This document shows, piece after piece, positions 1,256 to 27,212 of a stretch of DNA of 34,091 bases. The position numbers and the translations under genes are program-made. The stretch's first letter is position 1. Each line of letters starts with the position of its first letter. The DNA lies in contig SHMT01000040.1 of assembly GCA_004282745.1 (NCBI GenBank), positions 1-34,091 on the forward strand. The letters are read 5' to 3'. This stretch comes from Candidatus Scalindua sp. SCAELEC01. Its GTDB lineage: Bacteria > Planctomycetota > Brocadiia > Brocadiales > Scalinduaceae. The notes beneath the pieces were generated by a model. That model did no database searches and was not told the origin of the DNA. It saw only the letters and a program-made list of their open reading frames with translations.

Positions 1256-1426
1256 ATGGAAAAAGATAACGATTACGAGTCCCTTTCAAACAGTAATGGC
1301 CCTGGCAAGGAGTTCTTCGAAAATGAAAAATGGATATTTGGTGATATCACGAGTGAGTATTATGATTTTCTCCTCAATAGAGCTTTTGAAGGACACAACT
1401 TAAATGAATCAGAACTCTTCTTTTAA
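1256..1426 (+). CDS. Small acidic hypothetical protein (56 aa)
   Basis: An ATG-initiated frame of 56 residues rich in Glu, Asp, Asn and aromatic residues (for example WIFGDITSEYYDFLL), which reads like a folded protein rather than random translation. An in-frame stop lies upstream within family B1, so it starts at this ATG or is the surviving 3' end of a gene whose front was lost to the repeat. No good ribosome-binding site is visible. Its TAA stop forms the first three bases of the 6-bp target duplication of the next family A element. No family recognised; it could be a remnant. Confidence 0.4.
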   Translation: MEKDNDYESLSNSNGPGKEFFENEKWIFGDITSEYYDFLLNRAFEGHNLNESELFF

Positions 1427-1429
1427 CTA

Positions 1430-1574
1430 GTGTCTAAACGAAAACCCTGTGTTTGAATGAAAAGTGCCCAGGTACAAGGCGCGTAACAATTTCGTAACCG
1501 GAACGTACAATAGTACTTGAGGATTTAGAAATTGTTGCAGCAACGTAGTAGATGGGTAGTTTTTGTTCAAACAC
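1430..1574 (+). mobile_element. Family A element, copy A1 (145 bp)
   Basis: Core runs from GTGTCTAAACGAAAAC to GTTTTTGTTCAAACAC and is flanked by TAACTA on both sides (1424-1429, 1575-1580). Long imperfect palindrome with central GTACAATAGTAC. The stop codon of the preceding small ORF lies in the left duplication. Confidence 0.75.
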
Positions 1575-1724
1575 TAACTATGAGAAAAGATCAACAAACA
1601 CCTCTTTATAACCCGGCGAAAACATCATAAGAACTTTGGAACCCCTTCGGCATTACCTACCAGTCAGCAAAATTAATGATAGACACAACACTTATTATAA
1701 AACCTAAAAAATATGAAAGGAATT

Positions 1725-2057
1725 ATGAAAAAAACAATAACACATGATCAAGATATAAGATTAACCATTATAGAATACAAAGATAGACTGAATAAAATTG
1801 TTACGCTTGCATACCTTTGTCTAGAAAAAGACAGACAGGATAATGGAAATTTTGTAGATAATGGTAAACTTTTAGTTTCTGTTGATAAAAAAGAGATGTA
1901 TAGAATACCATTTAAAGGAACATTTACCGAGGAAAGAAGTACCGCCCTAACAAAACATCTTAATGAAATTGTTAACCAAGGAAAGGCTGGAGAAGTTCTT
2001 TGGGGTCATATAGAAAATAAAGTTCTTAGGTGTTGTGGCTCTTGCTATGCAATATAG
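1725..2057 (+). CDS. Hypothetical protein
   Basis: About 110 residues from the second in-frame ATG, chosen because AAAGGA lies six bases before it; the ATG at 1713 has no such site. The protein is basic to neutral with mixed helix and strand character, no signal peptide and no membrane segment. It ends in a Cys-rich tail (RCCGSCYAI) that could bind metal or form disulfides. No family recognised. The low-GC codon use resembles the coiled-coil gene downstream. Function unknown. Confidence 0.6.
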   Translation: MKKTITHDQDIRLTIIEYKDRLNKIVTLAYLCLEKDRQDNGNFVDNGKLLVSVDKKEMYRIPFKGTFTEERSTALTKHLNEIVNQGKAGEVLWGHIENKVLRCCGSCYAI

Positions 2058-2288
2058 ATTATTTTACTTTTCCCGCAATGTAAAAAACTTCTCCTATTCA
2101 AAGTAATAGACATCTGAGATTTCTCACCTTATGCATTCTTGAGAAACAATACCTGATTGCTTATCAATTTCTCTCTTTTGTATTGTCTTTCACTCTTTTT
2201 TTAATTAGAATGGCTTTAGTTAGTACTATCCTTTGAATAATCAATTTTTCAGTAAATAACTCCGTAAAGAGAAGAGAGGAGGGTCGTT

Positions 2289-2579
2289 ATGAGTGTAAAA
2301 AAAGATTATCTTCATAAATTAGAAGTAGAGTTGAGTGATTGGGATAACAAAATTAATGAGCTGACTGTTCTGGCTGATAAGGCCAAACCTGAAGATAAAG
2401 CGGAATTCATTGGACATATTGAACACTTAAAGGTGAAGCAAAATCTTGTCAGGAAGCAACAAGAAGAGTTGGAACAGGCTCACGAAAGCGTATGGGAAGG
2501 TCTAAAGGATGGTATCGACAGCATCTTTGATGATATGTTAAGTTACGCTGAAACACTTTTTTCAAAATTTAAGGATTAA
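2289..2579 (+). CDS. Small coiled-coil protein, sll1863-like
   Basis: 96 residues, almost entirely charged heptad-like helix: MSVKKDYLHKLEVELSDWDNK and onward, with a central KPEDKAEF turn. The pattern resembles the small sll1863-type coiled-coil stress proteins found near RND or stress genes, a likeness of architecture rather than a proven homology. A strong GAGGAGGG site lies seven to ten bases before the ATG. No export signal, so likely cytosolic and oligomeric. It lies 18 bp before the radical SAM gene and may be co-transcribed with it. Confidence 0.65.
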   Translation: MSVKKDYLHKLEVELSDWDNKINELTVLADKAKPEDKAEFIGHIEHLKVKQNLVRKQQEELEQAHESVWEGLKDGIDSIFDDMLSYAETLFSKFKD

Positions 2580-2597
2580 TATCTATTACAAAATAGA

Positions 2598-3707
2598 ATG
2601 CTCAATTTAGATTCATGCAATGATTCTGATTGTGATCTTCTTATACAACATGTGGCAAGAAAATTTTCTCCCCTCTTTCGAAAGAGAAACTACACAGATG
2701 AAGATAAGAGGTCCATCTACAGATATTTTTTCTCACAAAGACCCAAGAAATTACCCCCGTCACTAAAAAGCCGCATAATTAACCTCTATGACCCCCTGGC
2801 CGATAGGACAAAGAGGTTTCCCGATGGACTCCGCTTCTGTCTAAACGTTTACGTTGGATGTGAACACGCGTGTAAATACTGTTATGTAAATGGCTATTCC
2901 CAAGAATCGGTCGGACACTCTCCTCACGTAAAATCTGACTTCAGAAAAAACCTTGTCAGAGATATGAATGACTGTAAAGAGTTTGCTGTCCCTGTCGCAC
3001 CGCTTCATCTGAGCAATTCAACTGACATCTGCCAAGAAACCTTAGAAACACAGTATCGACATACACTTTTTGCACTGAATAAAATATCCGAATATAGGGA
3101 CCACTTCAGTTCAGTCGTACTTTTAACAAAAAATCCAAAAATACTTTGTCAAGAAGAGTACCTGTCACTACTCAATATGCAATCAATGAAACCTCTCGTT
3201 GTTCAGGTCACCTGCGCATTTTGGTGTGATGAAGTGAGAAAATTTTACGAACCGGATGCCCCAACTATTGAGAGTAGATTGCAATCAATTACATTTTTAA
3301 TTGAGAACAACATTGATATCGAGATGCGAATAGACCCTCTTTTTCCATCATCCGGAATTGAGTTTGAAGAAAAGTGCCACAAACCCTTACCCGATTATTC
3401 ACTCCCTGAAACACAATCTCATGATGACCTGGTCCAATTGGTCCGGTTTGCGAAGAATACTGGTGTTAAAACCATTATCGGTAAACCGCTAAAGATACCA
3501 ATCTCAAATAAGGCAGAAAAAGCTAAGAACCTGTTTGGAGAACTTTTCAGGGAATCTTTTACCGATAGAACAAGAACTGTACAGGGAGGATCATGGAGAT
3601 TACCTGAGACATATCAGGAATCAATACTTTCATCGGTAGCCACTATCTGTAAAAGAGAAGGGATCCGTTTCAAGTTTTGTAAATACGATGTGTTGACAAG
3701 AAAGTAA
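2598..3707 (+). CDS. Radical SAM protein, SplB-like (DNA repair photolyase family)
   Basis: 369 residues. The radical SAM cluster motif CxxxCxxC is C88-E-H-A-C92-K-Y-C95, which binds a [4Fe-4S] cluster and S-adenosylmethionine. The surrounding sequence (LRFCLNVYVGCEHACKYCYV) and the later LLTKNP and MRIDPLFPSSG segments match the spore-photoproduct-lyase-like group (COG1533), which includes true DNA lesion repair enzymes and many members of unknown substrate. A 60-80 residue N-terminal extension precedes the core. The start codon has a weak ribosome-binding site and follows the coiled-coil gene by 18 bp. Family assignment is firm; substrate is unknown. Confidence 0.8.
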   Translation: MLNLDSCNDSDCDLLIQHVARKFSPLFRKRNYTDEDKRSIYRYFFSQRPKKLPPSLKSRIINLYDPLADRTKRFPDGLRFCLNVYVGCEHACKYCYVNGYSQESVGHSPHVKSDFRKNLVRDMNDCKEFAVPVAPLHLSNSTDICQETLETQYRHTLFALNKISEYRDHFSSVVLLTKNPKILCQEEYLSLLNMQSMKPLVVQVTCAFWCDEVRKFYEPDAPTIESRLQSITFLIENNIDIEMRIDPLFPSSGIEFEEKCHKPLPDYSLPETQSHDDLVQLVRFAKNTGVKTIIGKPLKIPISNKAEKAKNLFGELFRESFTDRTRTVQGGSWRLPETYQESILSSVATICKREGIRFKFCKYDVLTRK

Positions 3708-3865
3708 ACAGTTTTAAGATCTTTCTCGCTTTTATTCTTAGGAAAAAGTTATTTGGCTGTTACCTAAACATGCTAATAATGTATTTCTTAACATATTAAA
3801 TATTGATATTATTAAGGGTTTTTGATAAGAGTACTAGTAATAAGAGTATCTATCTGTAAAAGTCT

Positions 3866-5506
3866 ATGGGATTAATTATGAACAGCATAATCAATTTTTT
3901 CATATCAACCAGTTGGATATACTCATCTCATAATGGTTTTCGGATAAAACCCGAGATAAAATTGAGCGAGTATAGTCCTCAGCGCCTTTTGACCGGCTTT
4001 AGTATATTTAACTCAAAACCGAAGATCAGGAGAGGTATCTGTATCGTTTTGCTTTTTGTTGGAATTTCTCTTATGGTTGGTTGCGGAAAAAAGAAGGAGA
4101 TTAAAAAGACACCCAGCCCGCGCCCTGTAACGGTACTTGAACTCCGTGAATCAAATCCTGTCAAGCCATTACAGCTGACGGGATCGGTCAAATCCTGGAA
4201 GGATGAGGATATCTCCTTCGAGGTGGATGGGCGTTTAGGCTGGATTGTGGAGATGGGTACCAACCTGGAGGGTCGTTGGGAAGAGGATGGTGTAGTGCGA
4301 GTCCCTGGAGACATCCTGGCCCGTATTGATGAACGACGTTATAATATAAGATTAAAACGGGCAAAGGCTGAGAGAGATCGTGCCGATGCCGAATATGTGA
4401 GGAAGAAGAGTGCGTGGGAGAAGAGGGCAATTTCTGAGGTTGATTTTATCCGCGGCACTGCAGATCGAGACGCCAAAGAGGCAGAATTTGAGTATGCGGA
4501 TTACGACCTCGAAAAGTGTACCCTCTACGCCCCTTTTGCTGGTGAGGTTTCCGAGGTGTATGTAGAGGCTGGTGGCTACGTGAAAAGAGGAGACCCAGTA
4601 GCGCATCTTGTGATGATGGATCCCATCAAGATTGATATTTCAGTCTCTTCTGCAACATCCGAACGCCTGAAAATCAGGGATGCAGTACGTATTTTCTTAC
4701 CGGAAGACGAAGACCCTGTCTACGGAATCGTCTATGAAAAGTCCACCGTTGCCGATCCGAAAACTAGGACATTTAGGGTCTCGATTATTACGCGTAATAT
4801 ACGGACTGTTGGCGGTCTTGCTCCGGACAATCCGCTTCTTAACCATCCCCTTATAACAGATTTTACCCATCTGTTTAGAATGAGGGAGGGTGATAAGGAT
4901 AGTCCTTTCGTAGTTGAGGAAAACCGATCACTTCGCAAGGAAGGCGAAGGCTACTATGTCTGGGCCGCACCTGAACATAAATTAGGAGATAAGATTGATA
5001 AAGATAACCCTCTCATCACGCTCCACAAATTTAATGTCACTCCCGGAGAACGTCGCATGAACCTCCAGGGTCTCTACCTCATGCGTGAACTCTCTGACAT
5101 TGGAGAACTTGCGCCGGGTACATTGATTGCCATGGATGTCCCTGACGGTTTTAAGGATGGTGACGAGGTTCTGATTTCCCGAAATCAGTGGCGGCTACGT
5201 CCCGGTCAGCTAATACCCGTACTCCTTGGAGTATCTGTCCCGGTGACAGGCCTCTATCTTCCCATGAATTCTATCAAACCCGTTGATGAAAAAGTTGGGG
5301 AGATATTTTTAGCCATCGATGGTAAGGCCACGAAGGTAAGGGTGAAGATTCTCGACAACGTGGGTGAATTGTTTCGATTGGAAGCACTTGATCCGAATGA
5401 AGCCAACCTCGTCAAGGCTGGCGCCAAGGTTATTATTGATCACATCCATTTCCTTCAGAACGAGGAGCCCATTCAGGTTATCAAACTGGTGGAGCAGAGG
5501 CCATGA
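3866..5506 (+). CDS. RND efflux periplasmic adaptor (MFP) lipoprotein
   Basis: A membrane-fusion protein bridging an inner-membrane RND pump to an outer-membrane channel. A hydrophobic stretch ends in the lipobox LMVGC (Cys at residue 73 from this start). A lipoyl-like half (SVKSWKDEDISFEVDGRLG), an alpha-hairpin (RLKRAKAERDRADAEYVRKK) and the second half (CTLYAPFAGEVSEVYVEAGG) follow. At 546 residues it is longer than the usual 350-400; the extra length lies around residues 300-430 in the barrel region. The N-terminus is odd: family B copy B2 (3920-4004) is read through in frame, adding 29 residues before the signal sequence. ATG 3878 is an equally possible start; neither has a good ribosome-binding site. 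The stop overlaps the pump start by 4 bp. Confidence 0.85.
   Translation: MGLIMNSIINFFISTSWIYSSHNGFRIKPEIKLSEYSPQRLLTGFSIFNSKPKIRRGICIVLLFVGISLMVGCGKKKEIKKTPSPRPVTVLELRESNPVKPLQLTGSVKSWKDEDISFEVDGRLGWIVEMGTNLEGRWEEDGVVRVPGDILARIDERRYNIRLKRAKAERDRADAEYVRKKSAWEKRAISEVDFIRGTADRDAKEAEFEYADYDLEKCTLYAPFAGEVSEVYVEAGGYVKRGDPVAHLVMMDPIKIDISVSSATSERLKIRDAVRIFLPEDEDPVYGIVYEKSTVADPKTRTFRVSIITRNIRTVGGLAPDNPLLNHPLITDFTHLFRMREGDKDSPFVVEENRSLRKEGEGYYVWAAPEHKLGDKIDKDNPLITLHKFNVTPGERRMNLQGLYLMRELSDIGELAPGTLIAMDVPDGFKDGDEVLISRNQWRLRPGQLIPVLLGVSVPVTGLYLPMNSIKPVDEKVGEIFLAIDGKATKVRVKILDNVGELFRLEALDPNEANLVKAGAKVIIDHIHFLQNEEPIQVIKLVEQRP
3920..4004 (+). mobile_element. Family B element, copy B2, inside the adaptor gene
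   Basis: Shares TACTCATCTCATAATGG and the following 55 bases with B1 and B3, then ends CTTTAGTA after an internal deletion of the CCAAGATTTGG palindrome. TA flanks both ends. Element plus one TA is 87 bases, so removal leaves the adaptor frame open. Confidence 0.65.
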
Positions 5507-8500
5507 ATCTCCCAGCGTTTTCTCTCAAATATAAAGCCATCATCGTGACGATGGTTGCTCTATTAATGTTATGGGGCATATTGAGTTACTTTACCATGTC
5601 CCGACGTGAGGATCCTGAGTATACGGTTCGGACGTGCCAGGTATTGACCAACTGGCCAGGCACCCCTACTGAAGAGGTAGAGGAGCTCATTACCTTTAAA
5701 CTGGAAGAGGAGATAAACACCCTTGATGGTATCCGTTGGGTACGTTCCGAGACATCGATTGGGCGGTCAGCCGTTTACGTGGAGTTGGACAGGACAACTC
5801 CTGGTGATGCCGTGGAACAGATGTGGGACAAGGTCCGCTCACGGGTAGATCGCGTTCCCATGCCGGAACCTGGGATCAAACCTGTGGTCATCGATGATTT
5901 CGGTGACACAAATATCATGCTTATGGCCCTTTACCAGATTCCACTCCCCGGAGAGGATAGGGTAAGAGATGAGGACCGCTATTCATATCGCGAACTGGAC
6001 ATATTCTCCAACCGGCTTAAAGACGAGATCAAGCTCCTTACCGGTGTAGCCAAGGTTGTGCGTACGGGTGTGCAGGACGAAGCCATATACATAGAGGCTG
6101 ATCTGGGGACGTGGACACAGCTGTCAATGACGACAAGCAAGCTGGAGGAGTTAGTCTCAAGGCGTAACGTTATCGCTCCCGGTGGTGAAATTAACACCGA
6201 TGTTGGACGGTTTACGGTTAAACCCAGTGGTAACATCAACGTTATGAGTGAACTGAACGCAATCGTCATTGGCACCATTGGTGACAAAGACTCCAGTGCC
6301 CCGGCATACCTAAAAGACCTAAACCTTAAAGTAGTGCGAGACTATGAGGATCCACCTGAAGTTATCGTACGTTTTGGTGACCCATATAGCCTGGAAACCT
6401 GTGTCATCGTAGCCTTCACAATGAAAAAAGGTGCCAACATCGTTGACGTCTGCGCAAATGCGAAAGGGGTGGTTAACCGCTTAATCAATGAGCAGAAAGT
6501 TTTTCCTCCCGATATTGCTGTTTCGTACATCTCTGATCAATCAGAGACAGTCACACGCAAGATCAGCGATTTCATCGCGAACGTTGTAGCGGCAGTTGTC
6601 ATTGTCGTCGTCGTCGTCTACCTGATGGTAGGATATCGGTCAGCGGCCGTAATGGGGGCGAATATCCCCCTTGTCATAATCGGATCTATCGCCATAATTA
6701 CGCTCTTTGGTGTACAACTTGAGCAGATTTCACTGGCGGCAATGATTATTGCCCTTGGAATGCTCGTGGACAATGCAGTACAAATTTGCGACCAGACTCG
6801 ACGGCTACAAATGGAGGGAATGTCACCATTCAATGCAGCCTTAAACGGCGCCAATCAACTTGCATTTCCAATCCTTATCGCCACGGGCACTACAATCGCT
6901 GCCTTTTATCCCATGCTTATAGGTCTGCAGGGTTCAACGTACGAATATATCTACAGCCTGCCGGTTACCCTGACCGTTACCCTTGGTTTCAGCTACGTGC
7001 TCGCAATGACCTTTTGCGTCTTACTGGCATACTGGTTCATCAAACCACCCAAGGACCCTGATCAGTCAATGTCACCCGTAATCCAGCTCTTCAATCTCAT
7101 CGGTAAGAAACTGCGCAAGGGACCTTCCGAGGACAAGGGAAGCGCAAAGAAATCCACCCTTTTGGCTAATCTCTACCCAAAATTTTCTCTTTTCTGTATC
7201 AAAATGAGATTCCTCGTTATCGCTATCTCGTTTGCCTTACTTGCTGGTGTTATGATGCTCCCTGTAGGATCAGAGTTCTTCCCTCAGGATCTCCGTGATC
7301 AGTTTGCGGTAGAGGTCTGGCTACCGGAAGGCGCTACCATTCATCAGACCGATGCCGTTACCAGGAACGTGGAGGAGATAATCAGAAAACTCAGCCCCCA
7401 TACTGATGATGAGGGGAATCCCGGACAGCGACTCCGTAACTTGGGAACCGTCGTTGGCAAGGGATGTGACCGCTGGTACCTGGGAAGAAGCCCGGAGTCA
7501 TCCAGGCCTAACTACGCAGAGATCGTTGTCAAGACAACTGATGGCAGAGTGACTTCCAACTATGTAAAAGAGATCCGGAGAGTAACCAGAGAGGGCAGTT
7601 CCCGTCTGGGTTTAGATCCTGTTACCGGTGCCCGCATCATTCCCCGCGAGTTGGTAATGGGCCCATCCGTTGATGCGCCCATAGGCTTTAGAATCTTTGG
7701 ACCAAAGTTGGGCGTTGGGTTTGCTGATCTGAAAATTATGCGTGAATTAGGAGATCAACTAAAGACAATCCTGCGTGAACAGTCGGGCACCTGGGACACC
7801 TACGATACCTGGGGTTCATCAGCCTACCAACTCCACGTAGATGTCGACGAGGATAAGGCAAATCTTGCAGGCATCACAAACCTTGGAGTTGCACAAACGC
7901 TCAATGCCTACTTTACCGGTCACTACATCACTACCTTCAGAGAGGGGGATCATCTTATTCCTGTTTACCTTCGCTTACCTCATGCACAGAGGGGTTCAAT
8001 CGAAGAGCTCCGTTCCGCATACGTAGAGGGCAAGTACGGCAAGGTACCCCTTGATGCTATTGCAAACGTTCAACCGCAATGGAAACCTGCACGAATCGAT
8101 AGACGCTTCCTCCAACGAGTAATTGAGGTACGGGCACGGGTCGAACCGGGATACCGCGCCAATGACATTGTAACGACTATGATGAAAAGCGAAGAGTTTA
8201 AGAGCTGGGAAGCAAACATTCCTCCCGGTTACTGGTGGGAGGTTGGTGGGGAGATGTTTGAATCTAAGCAGGCCAAGGGAGAACTCAGCCTTTCGTTAGG
8301 CATCTCTATACTCATGATAATTCTTTTGCTCATTATTCAGTACAACGGCTTTGCCAAGCCCGTTATCATACTCACGACACTGCCCCTTGCGCTCATAGGT
8401 GCGTTCTTTGGGCTCTATATTACGGGTAATCCACTTGGCTTTATGCCCCAACTAGGCCTTCTGGCCCTATTTGGCATTGTTGTGAATACGGCCATTATCT

Positions 8501-8847
8501 TTATCGAATTTGCAGACATCCTCATTAAGGAGAAGATTGAGAAATGTGATGGTTCCGGCCCCGTTATGGGACTTACTATCGAAGAATTCCGTACATGCCT
8601 TGTGCAGGCAGGCCAAATACGCCTCCTCCCCATAGCCATGACAACACTCACGACAATCGGCGGTCTTTTGCCTTTGGCATTGGCTGGAGGACCGTTGTGG
8701 GAAGGCATGGCCTGGCTCATGATATTTGGTTTGATTGTTGCCACCCTGCTGACACTGATCATTATACCCGCGCTCTATGCCATATTCGTCGAGAATTTTA
8801 AGATATCGCCCATCCCCAAGGTTGAACAAAAAACCGCGTCCCCTTAA
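5503..8847 (+). CDS. RND efflux pump, inner-membrane subunit (AcrB/HAE-like)
   Basis: 1114 residues, the normal size for a proton-driven RND exporter. TM1 is near residues 10-30; the first large periplasmic loop carries pore-domain features (NWPGTPTEEVEELITFKLEE). The TM4 proton-relay motif is GMLVDNAVQICD with Asp423. TM2-TM6 lie at about 365-515, TM7 begins near 565, a second periplasmic loop spans about 590-920, and TM8-TM12 follow to the end, including GLLALFGIVVNTAIIFIEF. It is translationally coupled to the adaptor through an ATGA overlap. No TolC-type gene lies in the window, so the outer channel must be encoded elsewhere. Substrate cannot be read from sequence; metal-exporter signatures of the CzcA type were not seen. 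Confidence 0.9.
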   Translation: MNLPAFSLKYKAIIVTMVALLMLWGILSYFTMSRREDPEYTVRTCQVLTNWPGTPTEEVEELITFKLEEEINTLDGIRWVRSETSIGRSAVYVELDRTTPGDAVEQMWDKVRSRVDRVPMPEPGIKPVVIDDFGDTNIMLMALYQIPLPGEDRVRDEDRYSYRELDIFSNRLKDEIKLLTGVAKVVRTGVQDEAIYIEADLGTWTQLSMTTSKLEELVSRRNVIAPGGEINTDVGRFTVKPSGNINVMSELNAIVIGTIGDKDSSAPAYLKDLNLKVVRDYEDPPEVIVRFGDPYSLETCVIVAFTMKKGANIVDVCANAKGVVNRLINEQKVFPPDIAVSYISDQSETVTRKISDFIANVVAAVVIVVVVVYLMVGYRSAAVMGANIPLVIIGSIAIITLFGVQLEQISLAAMIIALGMLVDNAVQICDQTRRLQMEGMSPFNAALNGANQLAFPILIATGTTIAAFYPMLIGLQGSTYEYIYSLPVTLTVTLGFSYVLAMTFCVLLAYWFIKPPKDPDQSMSPVIQLFNLIGKKLRKGPSEDKGSAKKSTLLANLYPKFSLFCIKMRFLVIAISFALLAGVMMLPVGSEFFPQDLRDQFAVEVWLPEGATIHQTDAVTRNVEEIIRKLSPHTDDEGNPGQRLRNLGTVVGKGCDRWYLGRSPESSRPNYAEIVVKTTDGRVTSNYVKEIRRVTREGSSRLGLDPVTGARIIPRELVMGPSVDAPIGFRIFGPKLGVGFADLKIMRELGDQLKTILREQSGTWDTYDTWGSSAYQLHVDVDEDKANLAGITNLGVAQTLNAYFTGHYITTFREGDHLIPVYLRLPHAQRGSIEELRSAYVEGKYGKVPLDAIANVQPQWKPARIDRRFLQRVIEVRARVEPGYRANDIVTTMMKSEEFKSWEANIPPGYWWEVGGEMFESKQAKGELSLSLGISILMIILLLIIQYNGFAKPVIILTTLPLALIGAFFGLYITGNPLGFMPQLGLLALFGIVVNTAIIFIEFADILIKEKIEKCDGSGPVMGLTIEEFRTCLVQAGQIRLLPIAMTTLTTIGGLLPLALAGGPLWEGMAWLMIFGLIVATLLTLIIIPALYAIFVENFKISPIPKVEQKTASP

Positions 8848-8978
8848 AAGGTGTTCTTAAGACTGCAGTTTTGAAAGCTGCGGTGTATACAGAGGCGTAC
8901 CCTCTGCACGTTTATAGGCGATGACGACCTTTCTGGGAAGCTTCATCCTGCCGTCCTCTGTCCATATCTGCCAGTCTA

Positions 8979-9112
8979 TACTCATCCCATAATGGTTTTC
9001 GGATAAAATCCGAGATCAATTGAGCGAGTAAAGTCCTCGGCGTTTTCTGTCCGGGGATACCTTCACCAAGATTTGGTTTCCGATAAACCCGAAAACCAAA
9101 TCGGTTTTAGTA
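8979..9112 (+). mobile_element. Family B element, copy B3
   Basis: TACTCATCCCATAATGG to CGGTTTTAGTA with TA on each side. The internal CCAAGATTTGG / CCAAATCGG palindrome has no GC-rich insertion, unlike B1. It interrupts the DUF2092 pseudogene. Confidence 0.75.
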
Positions 9113-9116
9113 TATA

Positions 9117-9261
9117 GTGTCTGAACGAAAACCCTGTGTTTGAATGAAAAGTGCCTAGGTACAAGGCGCGTAATAATTTCGTAACCGGAACGTACAATTG
9201 TACTTGAGGATTGAGAAAATATTGCAGCAACGCAGTAGATGGGTAGTTTTCGCTCAAACAC
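9117..9261 (+). mobile_element. Family A element, copy A2 (145 bp)
   Basis: GTGTCTGAACGAAAAC to GTTTTCGCTCAAACAC, centre GTACAATTGTAC, flanked by TATATA on both sides (9111-9116, 9262-9267). It was inserted into the right edge of B3, so it is the later event. Confidence 0.8.
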
Positions 9262-9520
9262 TATATATTCTCCTGGGTAAAGGTCAGAGTTACACTGAAC
9301 GCCATCGATAATAAGCAGACCAACACTAGTGCCTGATTTTACCTTTTCTACGAGAGATGCGCAGGGATCACTAACCACCAGGTAACCCTGAATTACCTCA
9401 TGCACAGGACATCCTAAAGCGTCTTACTATCCCACCCCTTGTCGAGCCAAGAGGTTCCCCTACTACGCTTAGGAGTTGTCGCAACTCCTTATTATCTTAT
9501 CAAGTTTGAAAGTCTTCTTT

Positions 9521-10297: not shown

Positions 10298-10344
10298 CCT
10301 CTCTCCCTCCCTTTTTGTGCAGCCCATAAGTTTGAATTTGTAAT

Positions 10345-10869: not shown

Positions 10870-11375
10870 ATTAATAACCTCCTAAAAAAATCTGTTTCCA
10901 CGGTTAAAGATAAGCTTCTGCCTGAACAAGAAGAACCAATCGTTTTTTTCCATCGAAGGCGACCATCACAATAGTATTTCTGTTATGGGGCCTACACTTT
11001 GCGATGCTTTCCATACGGCACTTCAATGAGCAAATCCTCGTTTCTCAATGGCGCACATTATGTATTAAGGATAGCATAGCAATAACAAACCGTCAACTCT
11101 ATAACTCACGGTAATAGTAAAAAACCCTTGCAAAACGCTCAATTTTTGATACCTTGACATGTGTATGAAAACTTAAAATTACAGCCTTATATTTTTCATA
11201 TCGCATGAGAACAGAATATGAGACTCTTCGGCTTCTTTCTCCTTTTTCCCGGGGCAAAGTCTCCTGGACATTAACTCCCACCTATCTCGGATCTAAGCTT
11301 AGTTGCAGTGCTGAAAAGGGGGAATGAGAAGTAAGTGCTGGGTAGTTACAACATTAACAGAAAGGGTTACTCAAT
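10870..11375. other. Intergenic divergent region, no gene seen
   Basis: About 500 bp between divergently transcribed genes. No convincing coding frame or palindromic repeat was found. TTGACA at 11154-11159 is a possible -35 element but no good -10 follows at 16-18 bp, so no promoter is called. Confidence 0.35.
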
Positions 11376-16500: not shown

Positions 16501-16743
16501 GGGTCCAGGAAAAAATAAAGATGCATACAGTTGTTACCAAATTATATATGCAGAAATCGTGGAACATCCAGTACCATAGTATATCCGATATCCGAAAAGT
16601 CATTGATTAATACGTTGTCTTATTTCATAATACGATGAAAATTGCACACTTGCTATCATACAGGTGATATTCAATAAAATTTTTATAGCCTCATGATAAA
16701 AAATGATACTCCTTCTGTTTGTCGCAGAGCTTTTTCCTGAAAG

Positions 16744-19209: not shown

Positions 19210-19392
19210 CTTATCATTTCAGAACCTAATTTTCAAAAATCACTTGAATATTGTTTTTAGTTTCACTATGCTTACACCATCTTATAAAAGCAATTTCCTA
19301 TCATCAAATTAAGATTTTAGACTGGAACAGCAAGTTGTTTTTGCAACTTTTCAACAATACCGCATAGTTGTTTTTATCTCAATAGTTAAATA

Positions 19393-19537
19393 GTACTTGA
19401 ACGGAGACCCCTTGGTTGAACCAAAACTGACCAGGTATAAGGCGCGTAATAATTTTGTAACCGGAACGTACTCAAGTACGTGAGGATTACGGAATTATTA
19501 CTGCAACGCAGTAGATGGGTAGTTTTCGTTCAACCAC
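19393..19537 (+). mobile_element. Family A element, copy A3 (145 bp)
   Basis: GTACTTGAACGGAGACC to GTTTTCGTTCAACCAC, centre GTACTCAAGTAC, flanked by TAAATA on each side (19387-19392, 19538-19543). Lies 5' of the small lipoprotein gene, in the same orientation as A4 on its other side. Confidence 0.78.
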
Positions 19538-19587
19538 TAAATAGAAATTTACTTTTTTTAAGGCACAGAGAGAAGGGGATTTACCCT

Positions 19588-19977
19588 ATGAAGAAATTTA
19601 TGACATCTTTTACTTTTTTTGGATTGATAGTTTGTGTTATTGTCATCTCAAGCGGCTGTAAATATCTTTCCAGAACAGCTGCCATACCCGAACCGGTCGG
19701 CAATTACGTAGTCCTTGTTTATGAACTGCCGTTTATTTACGAGGAAGATAACTCTCGACAGGAACAGTTTCTTTCCACCATTCGCACTGTTGTTGCTCCA
19801 GCAAATTGGAAAAAGGGACCGGATACTATGTTCGCGATAACAAATATACTGGTTGTAAGTACAACACCTCAAAATCACATGCATCTCGAACGATTCTTCG
19901 ATTCGCTTCCGGATATCATCGATGAGCAACCACCGGCGTGGATTGAAATACTGGAAGAAAAGAAGAGAGCTAAATAG
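19588..19977 (+). CDS. Small planctomycete-type lipoprotein
   Basis: 129 residues from ATG 19588, preceded by GAAGGGG; a longer frame upstream is only repeat A3 read through. Signal peptide ends SSGC (Cys24), a passable lipobox. The mature part has IRTVVAPANWKKGPDTMFAI and NILVVSTTPQNHMHLERFF, a pattern common in planctomycete secreted proteins where a TxxPxxW segment precedes an LVVxxTxxxHxxI beta-alpha unit resembling secretin N-domains. Function unknown. The TAG stop uses the TA of the target duplication and the first G of A4. The gene is bracketed by two directly repeated family A elements. Confidence 0.65.
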   Translation: MKKFMTSFTFFGLIVCVIVISSGCKYLSRTAAIPEPVGNYVVLVYELPFIYEEDNSRQEQFLSTIRTVVAPANWKKGPDTMFAITNILVVSTTPQNHMHLERFFDSLPDIIDEQPPAWIEILEEKKRAK

Positions 19978-20121
19978 TGTCTGAACGAAAACCCTGTGTT
20001 TGAATGAAAAGTGCCCAGGTACAAGGCGCGTAACAATTTCGTAACCGGAACGTACAATTGTACTTGAGGATTTCGAAATTGTTGCAGCAACGTAGTAGAT
20101 AGGTAGTTTTCGTTCAAACAC
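19977..20121 (+). mobile_element. Family A element, copy A4 (145 bp)
   Basis: GTGTCTGAACGAAAAC to GTTTTCGTTCAAACAC, centre GTACAATTGTAC, flanked by TAAATA (19971-19976, 20122-20127). The first base completes the stop codon of the upstream gene. Confidence 0.8.
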
Positions 20122-20133
20122 TAAATAAGAGTA

Positions 20134-20300
20134 TATACTCATTGCAAAGAAGTGTTCCTGGTATGCGGTGCCTACGCTAAAAGCGATTTTTGGTTTTCGG
20201 TATTACCCGTCCCCGCCAGAAAGAGCGTCGCCCGCCCGGCCTGTCAGCCATTCGGACGGGGGCTGGCGAACGGCTGACAGGCCGGAAACCAAATATTGGT
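20134..20300 (+). repeat. Composite family B-related repeat with nested GC hairpin
   Basis: Starts TATACTCATTGC as in family B/F and has the inner GATTTTTGGTTTTCGG / GGAAACCAAATATTGGT palindrome, but its loop is filled by a GC-rich module (20230-20260) and an inverted partial second copy. The right terminus could not be fixed. With A4 it accounts for most of the interval before the next gene. Confidence 0.5.
20236..20285 (+). repeat. Strong GC-rich hairpin (GC module and inverted copy)
   Basis: Left arm CCGGCCTGTCAGCCATTCG (20236-20254), 12-base loop, right arm CGAACGGCTGACAGGCCGG (20267-20285): 18 of 19 positions pair. No T-run follows, so it is not called an intrinsic terminator. Confidence 0.7.
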
Positions 20301-20391
20301 TGCCGGCTCGCCCTTCATTACCCTTCTTCACTTTTTTCATAACTATTGACACTCTTATATTTATCTATCGATGGAATGTTTTTCGCCACTT

Positions 20392-20988
20392 TCACTTTGC
20401 TGCGGCAATATTCCTGCTTATCTCACCGATATGCCAGGCAATACTTTTGAAAGAATCAAGGATATCAAGGTAAATTGGGGCATTGTTTGGTGTACACACT
20501 CCGGATATTAACCTCTCTTCATGAAAGATAGCATATTCATCTGCCCGTTCACACAATTCTTTCACACTACTACAGATTTGTTCAACCAATGACCCAGTAC
20601 ATGTATTGATACAATTACGCAGGCCATCCAACAGTTCCTGCAACTGACTAAATAATGTATTAGCCTCAGAAACCGATTTGTCAGAAAACAAAATATCGTC
20701 TGTCACCTTCTTATTTACTGCTTTAAACATTTTATTCAATCCATTTCCTATCCTATTAAAATGCTCGGGAACAGGAATAAAATGTTTTATCTCCTTTGAT
20801 TCCTGCGCACCAAGAAGAGAATTAAGCAGTATTTCAGAGTCTTTATAAAGATTCTCCTCAAGACCCTCTACTTTTTCCAGAAATTCCAAATTATGTTTTT
20901 TAAAACCTTTTTCCAGCATTCCAAGCATCTCTTTTGTGTGACTAATCATCTCTAAAAGGTCATTATTTACTGCGCTTTGACTGATCAT
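20392..20988 (-). CDS. Helical protein, PhoU-domain-like
   Basis: 198 residues, wholly alpha-helical by composition, no export signal. Segments such as LLEMISHTKEMLGMLEKGFK, LEFLEKVEGLEENLYKDSE and the second half with SVKELCERADEY resemble the PhoU-like three-helix bundles found at the C-terminus of Na/phosphate cotransporters, but the ExxxD metal pattern is incomplete and this remains a likeness. AGGAGG lies eight bases before the ATG. Likely cytosolic. It stands alone; no phosphate genes are nearby. Confidence 0.55.
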   Translation of the reverse strand: MISQSAVNNDLLEMISHTKEMLGMLEKGFKKHNLEFLEKVEGLEENLYKDSEILLNSLLGAQESKEIKHFIPVPEHFNRIGNGLNKMFKAVNKKVTDDILFSDKSVSEANTLFSQLQELLDGLRNCINTCTGSLVEQICSSVKELCERADEYAIFHEERLISGVCTPNNAPIYLDILDSFKSIAWHIGEISRNIAAAK

Positions 20989-21157
20989 TTCTAAACCCTC
21001 CTCATTTTAAATTCAGATTTTCATAATAAACTATACTCTTCACTAGCAAATGAAAAATATCAAAAACAATCGTAAATCTCAAATACCAAATCGTAATTCC
21101 GGGTAATTCAAGGAATTACCTAAGGAGATTCGCAGAATCGCCCATAATCAGATATCC

Positions 21158-22297
21158 TCATTGAGATGTAGGAACAGTAATCATCGGTCCCACTGTCTGT
21201 GCCTGCGGGGCCTGCATAAGGAAAAGATAGGTAAGCAGACCAAAGGCCTGTTTACTCATATGATCGGAGTGACTGATATAAAACCAGTGATCATGATGTC
21301 GCACCGTGACGAAGGCGTCTGCGGGACGATCAACACTGGAGTGAATTTTCAGCGGAAACAACAATGAACGAAGTTCCGGGTCAACCGAAAAAACCATCTC
21401 CTCGACGCGTTGTTCCTCGATGTGTGCGGCAGGAACCTCTATACCACGGGAGAGGAATCCCATCAGGGCTAAAAGCGACCTTACCCGTATGGTGACCTCA
21501 TCCGGTTTGCGCCCTACCAATCTCCTTGTTACCCGAAAAGAGGAGTTATCAGGGTCAAGGTCAAGCATACTTTTACATTCATCGATCAGGGCCTGGGTAT
21601 CATCATCCTGCACCTGTTTGAACACTAGGGAGCGGGTACTCGGAGTCGCTGAATTGTTGCTTTGCATTTCCAGTAACCTGCGTCTTGACAATTCTATAAT
21701 GGTTTGAACCATATGATTAAATGTACGAAGTCCTTTAAGGCTTTTAACAGACGGCATAGTACTGAAAGGTATATTCTCCAGATGGTTTACTCGTTCCAGG
21801 CTCATCATCAGTAGCTGGTCCGGTGGCCAGCCGGACTGTATGAGGGAAAAAACCAATTCATTGGGGAGTGGAGTCAGCAGTTGTTGTGTGAATTCCTGAC
21901 CGGCCAGAGGACTGTAGGTAATAGTAGGCCGTTCAAAGTAAACCATGTTACCGGTTGCACCTATGATCTCATTTGCCGCACCGCTCGTAGGTTTGCCAAA
22001 TCGGGCATCCGCAAAAACCTGTCCCCCATAAAAATACTGGGTAAGCACTGAGCCAACAGCAAGAAACACAGGAACTTCACGATACCGCAGGCGTACGAGG
22101 TTGGCCAACATCTGTTCATTAGACGAACGTGCAATCGCCTCATTATAGTTGAAGCTGTCTCTTGCTATTTGTCTGGGCCCGAATCTGCCACAGGCTGGCA
22201 GAAATAGACACAGCATAATTAAAAAACTGACGACAAGAGTGCTGCTACAAGGCCTCGTCCTGAGCCACTTCACGTTACTCCCTTCCATTGAATCCAC
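21158..22297 (-). CDS. Conserved hypothetical lipoprotein
   Basis: 380 residues (379 codons plus GTG start). GTG at 22297 is chosen because AAGGAGAGATCC lies directly before it; the upstream ATG at 22330 has no such site. The signal peptide ends in lipobox LPAC (Cys about 36). The mature protein opens FNYNEAIARSSNEQMLANLV and includes RYREVPVFLAVGSVLTQYFY, ERPTITYSPLAGQEF and LIQSGWPPDQLL, blocks I know from a widespread but unnamed proteobacterial/planctomycetal lipoprotein group. No enzyme motif recognised. It follows the gene at 22455-23495 on the same strand by about 157 bp. Confidence 0.7.
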   Translation of the reverse strand: MDSMEGSNVKWLRTRPCSSTLVVSFLIMLCLFLPACGRFGPRQIARDSFNYNEAIARSSNEQMLANLVRLRYREVPVFLAVGSVLTQYFYGGQVFADARFGKPTSGAANEIIGATGNMVYFERPTITYSPLAGQEFTQQLLTPLPNELVFSLIQSGWPPDQLLMMSLERVNHLENIPFSTMPSVKSLKGLRTFNHMVQTIIELSRRRLLEMQSNNSATPSTRSLVFKQVQDDDTQALIDECKSMLDLDPDNSSFRVTRRLVGRKPDEVTIRVRSLLALMGFLSRGIEVPAAHIEEQRVEEMVFSVDPELRSLLFPLKIHSSVDRPADAFVTVRHHDHWFYISHSDHMSKQAFGLLTYLFLMQAPQAQTVGPMITVPTSQ

Positions 22298-22454
22298 AGG
22301 ATCTCTCCTTACAAAAGTACGAATAATCATGCGTATGGTTACACGATAACAGCTCTGCGTTAAAACAAAACACTAAAGGCTTCATGCACAAATGTTTAAA
22401 ATGGAAAGACGGTACAATCAACTTGAACAGGTAAATAACTACTTGGGGCAACCT

Positions 22455-23495
22455 TTAAGGTTTACAAAGTTTACAGGGCACACCGCCAGATTCAAGCGCC
22501 TCTTGAGATGAGCCAAATTCCAGTATATCCCCTCCACCCAGGTTAGGACAATCGGATGTGTGATACAGGTTAGACGTTCTGGTCACAAATACGGAACGAG
22601 AACCACTTTCAGGTAACACCTGTTTATCCACCCGTCTCATACTCTCCTCAACCCTGGTTGGTTGTGCATCATCTCTGATCATCTCGCTTGATAGAGCGGA
22701 GTATTCTCCGAGGTAAAGATATGGATCGAGACTATCTTCCGGCATTCCCGCTTGTGTCGTGCCTGCCTGAGTATCATTCGCATTCTCTCCCAGGGTAAAG
22801 AGAATACTCTCTTCACCTACCGTCCCCCTTATACCAGAGACATCCATAACCCATCTTCTCTTGTGTCTGACCAATTTTATTGTATCGTCACCCTCTCCAA
22901 ACAACAGTGTGGGTATGGGCATATCAATCTTTTCTAAGATATCGGGTTGAATATTTACAACACGTAACCCCATCCCGTTCCCACCGGTGAAGAACCAGGT
23001 ATCACCTTCGTCCTTTGAATAGGCAACAATTGCAAGGTTAAAGACCCCGTCCATGCCTTCAAATACCCTTGCAGGAAAGGTGGGGTTAAATTGAAGATAC
23101 GTCTCTTTCAGCTCTTGATCTACCCCTTTCGTGGTTACGGGAATCATTTGTGTCACAACAGAAACACGCATGCCGTCATAAGAGACTATCTCTTCCGGTT
23201 TGCTGAATCGCATTTGAGAAGGATCAAGTATCATTATCGTAGAATCCTTAAACTTCTGGACTAACCGAGCAAAACTCTCTTCACCCCCTATTGCTTGTAC
23301 CATTTCAGGAGAAGAAAAAGAGGCGGCCTTGACATAATCTCCAGACCGAAACGCATCTTCATACGCACTCAATCTCGACTCAAGTTTAGCATACATTGAC
23401 TTGACCGGTTCTGCCTCTACAGAGCAAGACATAAAAACAGATACCAATACTACAAAAACTACTTTTACCATCTCTTTCCACACAATTGATCTCAT
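22455..23495 (-). CDS. Secreted protein with C-terminal zinc-binding-like tail
   Basis: 346 residues. N-terminal signal (VKVVFVVLVSVFMSCSVEA), a domain resembling NTF2/DUF-type fold (RLSAYEDAFRSGDYVKAASF), a middle beta-rich region, a low-complexity linker and a final 40-residue module, VTRTSNLYHTSDCPNLGG through GVPCKLCKP. Its His312, Cys316, Cys341 and Cys344 form a plausible zinc site like the Ada/YHxxxC...CxxC tails found on other secreted proteins. AGGAGGTG lies three to ten bases before the ATG. No assigned function; the tail may bind metal or a partner. Confidence 0.7.
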   Translation of the reverse strand: MRSIVWKEMVKVVFVVLVSVFMSCSVEAEPVKSMYAKLESRLSAYEDAFRSGDYVKAASFSSPEMVQAIGGEESFARLVQKFKDSTIMILDPSQMRFSKPEEIVSYDGMRVSVVTQMIPVTTKGVDQELKETYLQFNPTFPARVFEGMDGVFNLAIVAYSKDEGDTWFFTGGNGMGLRVVNIQPDILEKIDMPIPTLLFGEGDDTIKLVRHKRRWVMDVSGIRGTVGEESILFTLGENANDTQAGTTQAGMPEDSLDPYLYLGEYSALSSEMIRDDAQPTRVEESMRRVDKQVLPESGSRSVFVTRTSNLYHTSDCPNLGGGDILEFGSSQEALESGGVPCKLCKP

Positions 23496-23985
23496 AACAC
23501 CTCCTCCCTAAGAAAAAAAATTGTATCACACTTCCTAAATGAAGTCAAAAGACTTAAGAATAAGAGAGGAGACAAATGCGTAACGCACATTCTCCTTTAC
23601 AAAATTTTAAATTCTCACTACAGCAACACTTTATATTTCACCCATTTGAATAGTGAAAGCACATTATTAATCACCATTGTCCGGTTAGGTTTTTGCGTAT
23701 TTAATTTATTGCCCCAAAACTTGTCATTCCCGCATGTTTTTAGCGGGAATCTATGATGAAACGAGTCTCTGGATACCCGATGAAGGTGTTCGGGTATGAC
23801 GAAAGCCGCCTTCGCAAAAACCTAACCGGACGCTACTGATTATTAATAGCAAAATTTATTACAACAAAAAATGAAAAAATTATTGTATTTTAACATTAAT
23901 TTGTATACACTGGTTACTGAAAAATCAACACCATATCATCTTTATTAAGTTCTAAAATACCAGGCATCACAAAATCGGGTTCTCT
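23496..23985. other. Divergent intergenic region upstream of the respiratory module
   Basis: Contains repeat D (23679-23831) and otherwise AT-rich sequence. TTGTAT near 23884 and TATACA near 23905 could be a weak promoter for the module, with a spacer (15 bp) shorter than ideal. No gene is seen. Confidence 0.3.
23679..23831. repeat. Family D composite palindromic repeat
   Basis: Ends GTCCGGTTAGGTTTTTGCG and CGCAAAAACCTAACCGGAC are a perfect 19-bp inverted pair. Inside lie two further hairpins, ATTCCCGC / GCGGGAAT and ATACCCGA / TCGGGTAT. The inner part resembles the widespread CATTCCCGC...GCGGGAAT type repeat. No clear target duplication was found. Confidence 0.75.
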
Positions 23986-24597
23986 ATGCACCATCTGTTT
24001 CCTTGCCAAACTATCAGGAACTCCCTATACAGAATCTCTTTTCTGTGTGCCTTTTTTTACTTACTATCTCTTTCCACTTCCGTATCGTTTGCCGTAGACA
24101 ATAAGAATGCTATCGAGTTAAATAAAGGCTTGGTAGATTACACTCCAGTGCAGGGTTACCTCCGTCAACTCAAGTTACGGCGTGAGGGGCTTTTCGAATA
24201 CTCCTGTGATGAGTGTCACCGGGTATTTCGTACCGTTCGGAGTAAGCGTTCACGAGTAGCCGAGCACGTAGACCTGAAACTGAATCACGGTAGCAACGAC
24301 AACTGTCTGAACTGTCACCATACAATCAATCGGAATGTTTATGTCACAAACGATGGTAAAGAGATACCCGCTGACAAACCGGAAGAGTTATGCGCCAAAT
24401 GCCATGGAGTGGTATATGGAGACTGGAAAGTTGGCGCCCATGGCCGCACCAGCGGTCCATGGAATAGAACAGAAACAGGATGGCATTCGCTCGTCTGTAC
24501 AGAGTGCCACAACCCTCATGATCCCAAATTTCCGCAAATTGTCCCCATGCCAGGTCCTGCAATCCCGGGCAGAAAAAGAGAAAAGGAGTCACAGTAA
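23986..24597 (+). CDS. Tetraheme cytochrome c, paired-CXXCH type
   Basis: 203 residues. A signal segment (FLCAFFYLLSLSTSVSFA) is followed by four CXXCH haem-binding motifs at residues 74-78, 107-111, 136-140 and 171-175, plus several other His that may be distal ligands. This suits a periplasmic electron carrier similar in role to NrfB or DsrJ. The TAA stop overlaps the next ATG (TAATG), so the ferredoxin gene is translationally coupled. The start lacks a clear Shine-Dalgarno site; another start within the signal segment is possible. Confidence 0.85.
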   Translation: MHHLFPCQTIRNSLYRISFLCAFFYLLSLSTSVSFAVDNKNAIELNKGLVDYTPVQGYLRQLKLRREGLFEYSCDECHRVFRTVRSKRSRVAEHVDLKLNHGSNDNCLNCHHTINRNVYVTNDGKEIPADKPEELCAKCHGVVYGDWKVGAHGRTSGPWNRTETGWHSLVCTECHNPHDPKFPQIVPMPGPAIPGRKREKESQ

Positions 24598-25553
24598 TGT
24601 CTGATAAAGCTACCGGAAAGAGCACCGCAGGCAAAAAAGAGATGTTTAAGCCCTTAAGCAGGAGAAGTTTTCTCAAAGCGGGCGCTTTGGGTTCACTTTT
24701 AATTGGGGGCACCGCTGCGGCAATGCTTCCGCTTCGCAAATTCAAGAACGATACGTCACTAGAAGCCTTCTTCCAGCAACATTACGACCGTCTGACCCCG
24801 GAAAGAATGGAAAGAATTCTGAGACGCATCGAAAAAGAGGTGAAAGAGCGTCACGGAATAGAAGCTTCTGTTGAAGATCCAAAACCGATCCCTGGCGTTC
24901 AATTCGCATATGCGTTAAATATCAGTCGCTGTGTGGGATGTCGACGCTGCGTGCATGCCTGTGTTGAGGAAAATAACCAATCACGTGATCCTGAAATCCA
25001 GTATATTCGGGTACTGGAGATGCCGGATGGCACCTTTGACGTTGAAAAATCTGACCACTATTATGACCCTGATACCGTACCCAGTGAGGGGAAATATTAT
25101 ATGCCGGTCCAGTGTCAACAGTGCGAGAATCCCGCATGTGTTAAGGCCTGTCCGGTGGGTGCGACATGGAAAGATGACGATGGAGTTGTTGTCATTGACT
25201 ATGACTGGTGTATTGGCTGCCGCTATTGCGAAGCAGCGTGCCCCTATTGGGCACGTCGTTTTAACTTTGCCGAACCTAAGATCCCCAAGGAGCAGATTAA
25301 CCCTGAAATGGCATACCTTGGCAATCGAATCCGCCCCAAAGGGACTATGGAGAAATGCACCTTTTGTCTGGGGAGGACGCGAAAGGGTCTCCTTCCAAAA
25401 TGTGCCGAGGCGTGCCCCGCCGGAGCGAGGCAGTTTGGAAACCTTTTGGACCCAGATAGTGTGATCAGACATATATTACGGGAAAAAAGGGTGTATGTAT
25501 TGAAAGAGGAGGCGGGAACTCGACCTAAGTTCTATTATTGGTTTGATAAATAG
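24597..25553 (+). CDS. Tat-exported 4x[4Fe-4S] ferredoxin, NrfC/DsrO-like
   Basis: 318 residues with a twin-arginine signal SRRSFLK (21-27) and a hydrophobic segment to about 45. Sixteen Cys in four groups: 112/115/118/122, 173/176/181/185, 205/208/211/215 and 254/257/269/273, giving four cubane clusters. This is the electron-wire subunit of NrfD-type membrane complexes, facing the periplasm or an analogous compartment. AAGGAG precedes the ATG, which overlaps the stop of the cytochrome gene. Its TAG stop is completed by the first G of family A copy A5, so the repeat starts exactly at the gene's end. Assignment to the NrfC/DsrO group is strong; partner quinone not readable. Confidence 0.9.
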   Translation: MSDKATGKSTAGKKEMFKPLSRRSFLKAGALGSLLIGGTAAAMLPLRKFKNDTSLEAFFQQHYDRLTPERMERILRRIEKEVKERHGIEASVEDPKPIPGVQFAYALNISRCVGCRRCVHACVEENNQSRDPEIQYIRVLEMPDGTFDVEKSDHYYDPDTVPSEGKYYMPVQCQQCENPACVKACPVGATWKDDDGVVVIDYDWCIGCRYCEAACPYWARRFNFAEPKIPKEQINPEMAYLGNRIRPKGTMEKCTFCLGRTRKGLLPKCAEACPAGARQFGNLLDPDSVIRHILREKRVYVLKEEAGTRPKFYYWFDK

Positions 25554-25678
25554 TGGTTGAAGGAAAAATACCCACCTACTGCGTTGCTGTAAAAATTTCG
25601 TAATCCTCACGTACTTGAGTACGCTCCGGTTACAAATTTTTTACGCGCCTTGTATCTAGGCATTTTTCCTTCAACCAC
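25553..25678 (-). mobile_element. Family A element, copy A5 (126 bp)
   Basis: Inverted orientation relative to A1-A4. GTGGTTGAAGGAAAAA to TTTTTCCTTCAACCAC, centre GTACTTGAGTAC, flanked by TAAATA on both sides (25547-25552, 25679-25684). Placed between the ferredoxin and NrfD genes. Confidence 0.8.
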
Positions 25679-25758
25679 TAAATAGGCATATCAATTCAGC
25701 GTAAATTTGCAAAATACACCTAAATCCTCTCCGGAAATAGGGGTATCTACAATATTAG

Positions 25759-25861
25759 ATGGGGTACGTAGTAGACGCTAAACAGTTGCAAATTTCAATG
25801 CGAAATGCTACTTTTACGTATTGTATAAAATTAAATCACTAATCCAAAAATTGTACCCCAT
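25759..25861. repeat. Inverted pair before the NrfD gene
   Basis: ATGGGGTAC at 25759-25767 and GTACCCCAT at 25853-25861 are a perfect 9-bp inverted pair enclosing 85 bp of AT-rich DNA. It may be an old repeat or a leader structure. Between 25685 and 25937 no gene is visible. Confidence 0.4.
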
Positions 25862-25937
25862 AAGAAAAACTCTGGACATGTTAGCAGTTACAATTGTTCT
25901 CTGTGGGCTCTATACAGTAGTGGCCCGGAGGTAAAAG

Positions 25938-27209
25938 ATGGAAAAACGTGAAAACAGTGAGGTCCATAAAGAGGCAACGCCGGGATCTCTCTCTAATTAT
26001 GGGCTGTTTCTGTTTCAAGCCGTTAGGCTTAGTTTTAGAGGGCATGTTGCTTTCTATTCCTGGATGATTTTCTTGACCATTCTCTCTTTGATTGGGCTCT
26101 GGGCATACTGTAATCAGTTCGTTGAAGGACTTGTCACCACCGGGATGACGGACCAGGTCTCCTGGGGAGTCTATATCGCCAACTTTACATTTCTTGTTGG
26201 AATGGCTGCAGCAGCAGTTATGCTTGTCATCCCCGCCTATCTCTACAAAGAGGAGGAGATGCATAACATCGTTATTTTTGGTGAATTGTTTGCTGTCGCC
26301 GTAATGATCATGTGCATGCTTTTTGTTACGGTGGATATGGGTCGTCCGGGACGTTTCTGGCATTTAATTCCCGTGATCGGACGCTTCAATTTTCCCATAT
26401 CAATGCTCAGTTGGGATGTTGTAGCGCTTATGGGGTATCTTGTCATAAATGCGCATGTCTGCGGTTACCTCCTCTATATGAAATACCTTGGAAAGAGACC
26501 AAACAGATGGCTCTTTATGCCTTTTGTTATCTTGTCTATTGTCTGGGCTATTTCCATCCATACGGTCACCGCATTTCTTTACGTGGGGATTGCGGGTCGT
26601 CCTTTCTGGAATTCGGCAATTGTAGCGCCGCGCTTCATTGCGTCTGCCTTTACTGCCGGGCCAGCATTTATGATCATTGCCTTTCAGATTATTCGAAGTA
26701 CTACAGGATATCATATCGGAGACCGGGTATTTCAACTTCTGAGGCAGATTGTGACAATATCACTATTGATCAGCCTCTTTCTGTTAGGATGTGAAATGTT
26801 CAAAGAGTTTTACAGCCAGTCACTGCACAATGCAAGTGCACGGTACCTGTTTTTCGGACTCCACGGACACTATGCGCTGGTACCATGGATCTGGTCAGCG
26901 ATTGCCATGGAAGTTGCTGCCGTTATAATACTCCTGAGTCGATTTTCTAAGAACCCGGCCAGATATGTCTGGTTAAATCTGGCATGCATCATGGCAACAG
27001 TAGGAATCTGGATAGAGAAAGGCCCGGGGTTGGTTATCCCCGGCTTCTTACCGACACCGTTGGGAGAAATCGTAGAGTATGCACCGACCCTTAATGAAAC
27101 TATGGTCTGTGTGGGTATATGGGCAATGGGCATACTTCTCTTCAGTTGGATGTTGCGGCTTGCGATTCCGATTACGTCAGGTGTGTTTCATACAACGGAA
27201 GATGTGTAG
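25938..27209 (+). CDS. NrfD/DsrP-family membrane subunit
   Basis: 423 residues with about ten hydrophobic spans. The family pattern is clear: WGVYIANFTFLVGMAAAAVM, TVDMGRPGRFWHL, ISMLSWDVVALMGYLVINAH, and LHGHYALVPWIWSAIAMEV. Proteins of this family (NrfD, PsrC, DsrP, HmcC, ActC) exchange electrons with the membrane quinone pool and dock a four-cluster ferredoxin. GGAGG lies seven bases before the ATG. Its TAG stop (27207-27209) is followed three bases later by family A copy A6. The 385-bp gap from the ferredoxin gene is unusual for partners and is partly filled by A5. Confidence 0.9.
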   Translation: MEKRENSEVHKEATPGSLSNYGLFLFQAVRLSFRGHVAFYSWMIFLTILSLIGLWAYCNQFVEGLVTTGMTDQVSWGVYIANFTFLVGMAAAAVMLVIPAYLYKEEEMHNIVIFGELFAVAVMIMCMLFVTVDMGRPGRFWHLIPVIGRFNFPISMLSWDVVALMGYLVINAHVCGYLLYMKYLGKRPNRWLFMPFVILSIVWAISIHTVTAFLYVGIAGRPFWNSAIVAPRFIASAFTAGPAFMIIAFQIIRSTTGYHIGDRVFQLLRQIVTISLLISLFLLGCEMFKEFYSQSLHNASARYLFFGLHGHYALVPWIWSAIAMEVAAVIILLSRFSKNPARYVWLNLACIMATVGIWIEKGPGLVIPGFLPTPLGEIVEYAPTLNETMVCVGIWAMGILLFSWMLRLAIPITSGVFHTTEDV

Positions 27210-27212
27210 TCA

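Follow-up and report, generated by a model that had tools for sequence, protein, structure and literature searches.

A modest excess of a MITE family on stop codons and gene 3' ends in Candidatus Scalindua

Short mobile repeats lying downstream of genes have been described in other systems: ERIC elements located at 3' ends alter transcripts, and most QMITE2 copies of Coxiella fall within 3' untranslated regions (PMC10969869). A MITE can also be paired with an IS, as in MITEAba12 and ISAba12, which have common terminal repeats and a common length of target site duplication (TSD) (PMC6382973). A repeat of the anammox planctomycete Candidatus Scalindua sp. SCAELEC01, here called family A, shares with ERIC and QMITE2 the features of a short, non-coding, hairpin-forming, high copy, mainly intergenic element with an AT target. 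Other features differ; family A has its own sequence, a 6-bp TANNTA duplication and ends in which TA plus G preserve a stop codon, and the effect on RNA is one described for ERIC. The MITEAba12/ISAba12 pair likewise differs from family A in its 9-bp TSD, its unrelated sequence and the presence of the partner IS in the same genome. The literature searched for stop-codon insertions of IS or MITEs in general contained nothing directly equivalent to the arrangement described here.

The window analysed is a stretch of 34,091 nucleotides, contig C97 in a genome of 4.59 Mb and 104 contigs, and it carries six copies of family A (Table 1). The first-pass annotation had placed an upstream stop codon immediately to the left of four of the six (A1, A4, A5 and A6), and a base-by-base check of the coordinates agrees. 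Its further statements that the first G of the element finishes the host TAG at A4 and A5, that joining the flanks without the element gives AAA TAA at A4 and AAA TAG at A5, and that two orientations occur (A1-A4 plus, A5-A6 minus) were confirmed as well. Two of the four cases need qualification. At A1 the TAA is present but the 56-aa ORF that it closes is unsupported outside the window: its coding score of 9 is marginal, and the corresponding locus of the same-genus genome G001 has no homologue; at A6 the NrfD TAG is in place but the element lacks a clean duplication. The closest homologues of the NrfD-like protein are from Candidatus Scalindua (92% identity), plus another Planctomycetota MAG. 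The small lipoprotein had been read as an ORF of 165 aa that begins within A3 (GTG 19480), yielding MITE-derived residues, and its true start is probably the ATG at 19588. The gene is flanked by the direct copies A3 and A4 (19393-20121), a composite-like arrangement that could move or be deleted as a unit. A short repeat of yet another family (the third, after A and the family B described below), marked by GGGCCCAGGAAAGAATAACTTGT, is seen in the window at 313-345, 524-559 and 30695-30733; in other parts of the genome it likewise adjoins copies of family A.

Table 1. Family A copies in the window and the genes and stop codons next to them
Feature	Position	Strand	Remarks
Element A1	1430..1574	+	145 bp, long form; perfect TSD TAACTA 1424-1429 / 1575-1580
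TAA stop of 56-aa ORF (ORF 1256-1426)	1424..1426	+	within left TSD of A1
Element A2	9117..9261	+	145 bp; TSD TATATA 9111-9116 / 9262-9267; no stop at site
Element A3	19393..19537	+	145 bp; TSD TAAATA 19387-19392 / 19538-19543; no stop at site
Small lipoprotein gene	19588..19977	+	129 aa from ATG 19588; between A3 and A4; TAG stop borrows first G of A4
Element A4	19977..20121	+	145 bp; TSD TAAATA 19971-19976 / 20122-20127; host TAG at 19975-19977
4Fe-4S ferredoxin-type protein	24597..25553	+	318 aa; Pfam Fer4_11 E=1.4e-18; TAG stop borrows first G of A5
Element A5	25553..25678	-	126 bp, short form; TSD TAAATA; host TAG at 25551-25553
NrfD-like membrane protein	25938..27209	+	423 aa; Pfam NrfD E=9e-39; TAG 27207-27209 just left of A6
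Element A6	27213..27338	-	short form (126 bp); TSD decayed or rearranged, flanks reading TAGTCA / TAATTT

Family A adds a new family to the known MITEs: it is short and non-coding, has no transposase gene, is bounded by discrete terminal inverted repeats (GTGTCTGAACGAAAAC and GTGTTTGAACGAAAAC, both starting GTG when read inward) and a TSD, is present in high and homogeneous copy number, and matches an IS in its ends. The modal length is 145 bp (92 of 148 near-complete copies); a 126-bp form also occurs, and on the left the long form has the terminal motif in an additional copy (GTGTCTGAACGAAAACCCT then GTGTTTGAATGAAAAGTGCC). The core pattern is matched 301 times in the genome, corresponding to about 300 copies, as against no match for the reversed control pattern and only about 15 in G001, and the median nearest-neighbour identity among copies is 98.6%. 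Within the 0.76 Mb around known copies, window included, perfect 6-bp duplications border 90 of the 148 near-complete copies, and 86 of these 90 read TANNTA. Searches of Rfam and of the PLSDB plasmids gave no match.

The likely partner of family A was found in other genomes. The end GTGTYTGAACGAAAAC following TANNTA, with up to 2 mismatches allowed, is present in 27 of the 59 genomes searched, and two full IS with the terminal inverted repeat GTGTCTGAACGAAAAC could be bounded in genomes (G024 and G051) of another family of the same order, at L216 438-2320 (1883 bp) and L217 381-2239 (1859 bp), with target duplications TAAGTA in L216 and TACATA/TAATTA in L217. Each carries one transposase, of 515 and 491 aa, that passes the curated 325-bit cut-off of the ISNCY-type model NF033593 (470 and 433 bits); one of the two also matches PF01609. 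Family A and these IS have a common 16-bp end and TANNTA targets; the interior of family A differs and it lacks the transposase. Judging from ends and target, then, family A was presumably mobilised by this ISNCY-type transposase. No homologue was detected in the window's own genome with the Brocadiales transposase at 1e-5, and the NF033593 model recovered there only a short frame-broken remnant with an internal stop at a contig end (L070 7237-7482; G000:C1:30436-30681), in a stretch that holds no family A end apart from those of family A copies. These observations would fit a MITE whose helper was lost, sits in an assembly gap or came transiently.

Derivatives of the same IS group occur elsewhere in the order. 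An 852-bp ISNCY derivative in G032 (L218 464-1315) has an internal deletion, intact ends and a TACATA duplication, and is intermediate between the full IS and a MITE. MITEs of 131-138 bp with the same ends and another interior (GTCATTTCGA...) are found in G055, G024 and G052 (L207, L221, L222, L226), and such differing interiors between the same ends imply that this IS group has given rise to MITEs several times independently. As to classification, the IS1202 family was formerly filed under ISNCY and is described with 5'-TGT ends, TSDs of 3-5 bp, more than 15 bp or none, and a TnsB-like transposase; members of its ISAjo2 group have 5'-TGT ends, are 1.5 kb long, encode a TnsB-like transposase of 441-457 aa and insert at dif sites, where they give 5-bp TSDs (Harmer and Hall 2023, PMC10132070). 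The partner IS was rejected as a member of IS1202 on its GTG ends, size of ~1.87 kb, transposase of 491-515 aa and 6-bp TANNTA duplication, and on the PF01609 match of one of the two transposases. The ISDol1 group comprises elements of about 1.6-1.9 kb with a 6-7 bp TSD, and the partner IS would fit it in size and TSD.

Placement was examined genome-wide in a sample of two parts, 0.76 Mb of DNA surrounding copies (the window among it) and a set of 20-kb stretches, 0.80 Mb in all, picked regardless of copies; complete copies were removed in silico, genes were called by a home-made dicodon model, and all TANNTA in the same DNA served as the null. The 134 restored sites divide into 105 intergenic, 22 on a stop codon and 7 in coding sequence (CDS), against 2071 intergenic, 132 stop, 3663 CDS and 46 start sites for the null. 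The first-pass annotation had proposed comparing the distance of copies to stop codons with that of TANNTA sites, and the copies do lie nearer: outside CDS the stop share is 22/127 (17.3%) as compared with 6.0% for random TANNTA (Fisher P=1.6e-5), and it is similar under stricter and looser gene thresholds. In the unbiased 0.80-Mb set alone the share is 4/35 vs 6.4% (P=0.28); this set is small, and the excess in it has the same direction but is not significant alone. The overall excess is real, at 2-3-fold, but the ratio in the window is untypical, since about one in six copies is at a stop genome-wide; the four of six is a lucky, unusually rich sample of a real but modest effect. Pure chance, by which AT-rich intergenic DNA and the TA contained in TAA and TAG would have sufficed to give four of six, gains something from the 6% of random TANNTA that already overlap stops and from the drop to 17% genome-wide, but is very improbable in view of the Fisher test on all sites and of a P of 0.003 that persists with motif weighting and the window excluded.

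That weighting bears on a second explanation, namely that the transposase favours an extended YTAAWTA resembling the stop context, so that the excess would be made at insertion and not by selection. In the orientation of the element the target does approximate YTAAWTA, with A enriched at TSD position 3 (54% vs 33%) and depleted directly before the TSD (14% vs 35%), and when the null is weighted by a motif trained solely on intergenic insertions, this by itself lifts the expected stop share from 6.0% to 7.8%. However, the weighted null predicts 9.9 sites where 22 are observed (P=3e-4), and neither the enrichment 1-25 bp from stops nor the preference for convergent regions is explained by target sequence. 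Target preference as the source of the excess is therefore rather unlikely, although the approximately 2-fold excess that survives weighting could include a preference that the motif does not model; the residual excess probably stems from selection, not targeting.

The distribution around genes points to tolerance. Within 0-25 bp of a stop there are 37 sites vs 18.6 expected, and the excess holds at 1-25 bp (15 vs 8.7, P=0.03), where the stop codon is not involved, which favours tolerance of 3' ends. Convergent gene pairs hold 17% of sites vs 9.5%, and a single site lies within 10 bp of a start where 5.1 are expected; together with the enriched 3' flank this is the pattern expected of insertion-tolerant 3' ends. 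CDS is strongly depleted (7/134 vs ~62% of TANNTA sites), likewise in set 1 (Fisher P=3e-24). The stop share is 16/110 in young copies and 5/15 in older ones, both based on small numbers. Choice of an AT-rich target followed by purifying selection, aided by the G at both ends, probably explains the copies at stops and 3' ends. An ISNCY-type transposase would move, or once have moved, family A in trans by cutting TANNTA with a 6-bp stagger, and insertions in CDS would be purged by selection. At stops, overlap with the first TA would copy the stop whole and overlap with the second would have it rebuilt as TAG by the terminal G; with the host protein unaltered, copies at stops and nearby 3' positions would persist and become over-represented 2-3-fold. 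The earlier suggestion that the target coincides with stops and that selection spares the harmless hits is borne out by the TANNTA target, the excess, the CDS depletion and the preserved stops, but it does not cover the majority of copies, which are off stops, nor the enrichment at 1-25 bp.

Preservation of the stop follows from the geometry of the target. TANNTA can meet TAA or TAG only via its first or last TA, giving two registers in each of which the stop is kept: when the first TA is common to the stop the entire codon is duplicated, and when the last TA is common the terminal G found at either end of the element produces TAG. All 22 stop cases fall in these registers, 9 in one and 13 in the other vs 4.3 and 5.6 expected, and a working stop is retained in every one of them, in agreement with the proposal that insertion leaves the host protein unchanged. 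Family B, a second repeat (TACTCATCTCATAATGG...CCAAATCGGTTTTAGTA, 106-187 bp, TA duplication; e.g. 1079-1236, near 3918 and near 8977 in the window) that is abundant in G001 too, provides a contrast because its TA target and T end would turn a stop into TAT. None of 42 classifiable non-CDS copies of family B is at a stop (Fisher P=0.002 vs family A), which is consistent with stops being safe for family A, as one contrast between two families that differ beyond the end base. It is doubtful, in a stronger version, that TANNTA and the terminal G at both ends make stops safe harbours, a heritable niche closed to the T-ended family B, with some old copies such as A5 belonging to the mRNA 3' end. 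Several family B copies sit within family A elements, at a GGTACAAGG motif.

The age of A5 comes from relatives. In a Scalindua relative (L031) a diverged family A element occupies the same ferredoxin stop, and an element common to this stop in both implies that the A5 association is old; in L032 the ferredoxin stop is TGA and no element is present. At the A6 locus of L031 the NrfD end has a possible short element remnant, weak at E=0.002. Comparisons with G001 for empty sites matched only repeats at A4, and at A1 conservation is limited to the downstream gene.

The first-pass annotation had also offered the hairpin as an mRNA 3' end, a suggestion that gains no support here. Its broader form would make the hairpin a terminator, an mRNA stabiliser or an RNase substrate, kept at stops for the benefit of the upstream gene, and could draw on the strong folding of both strands (z between -6 and -8.7), on two-sided changes at 5 of 40 consensus pairs, and on the old A5 association. 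However, the ends read CAC-TANNTA with no U-tract after the stem, terminator prediction called no site over A3-A6, so that the elements do not qualify as intrinsic terminators, orientation at stops is random (10/22 with the gene), and only 17% of copies are at stops. Hairpins moreover come with terminal inverted repeats, which explain the fold, and template switching at palindromes can also yield compensatory changes. Selection for such a function is thus improbable, more so than target preference; given the known effects of MITEs on mRNAs from 3' positions, family A may nevertheless have some RNA role there.

Insertion followed by tolerance at 3' ends remains the favored reading, and if the copies are neutral, as is judged likely, family A is a tidy but ordinary example. 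The overall effect is real, modest and largely ordinary, probably that of a MITE tolerated at gene ends. It nevertheless supplies a quantified case in which target motif and end base shape the sites where a transposon survives in a gene-dense genome, and an abundant, previously unassigned anammox repeat is now paired with an IS family. The contrast between families A and B (17% vs 0% at stops) puts the safe-harbour idea in a testable form.
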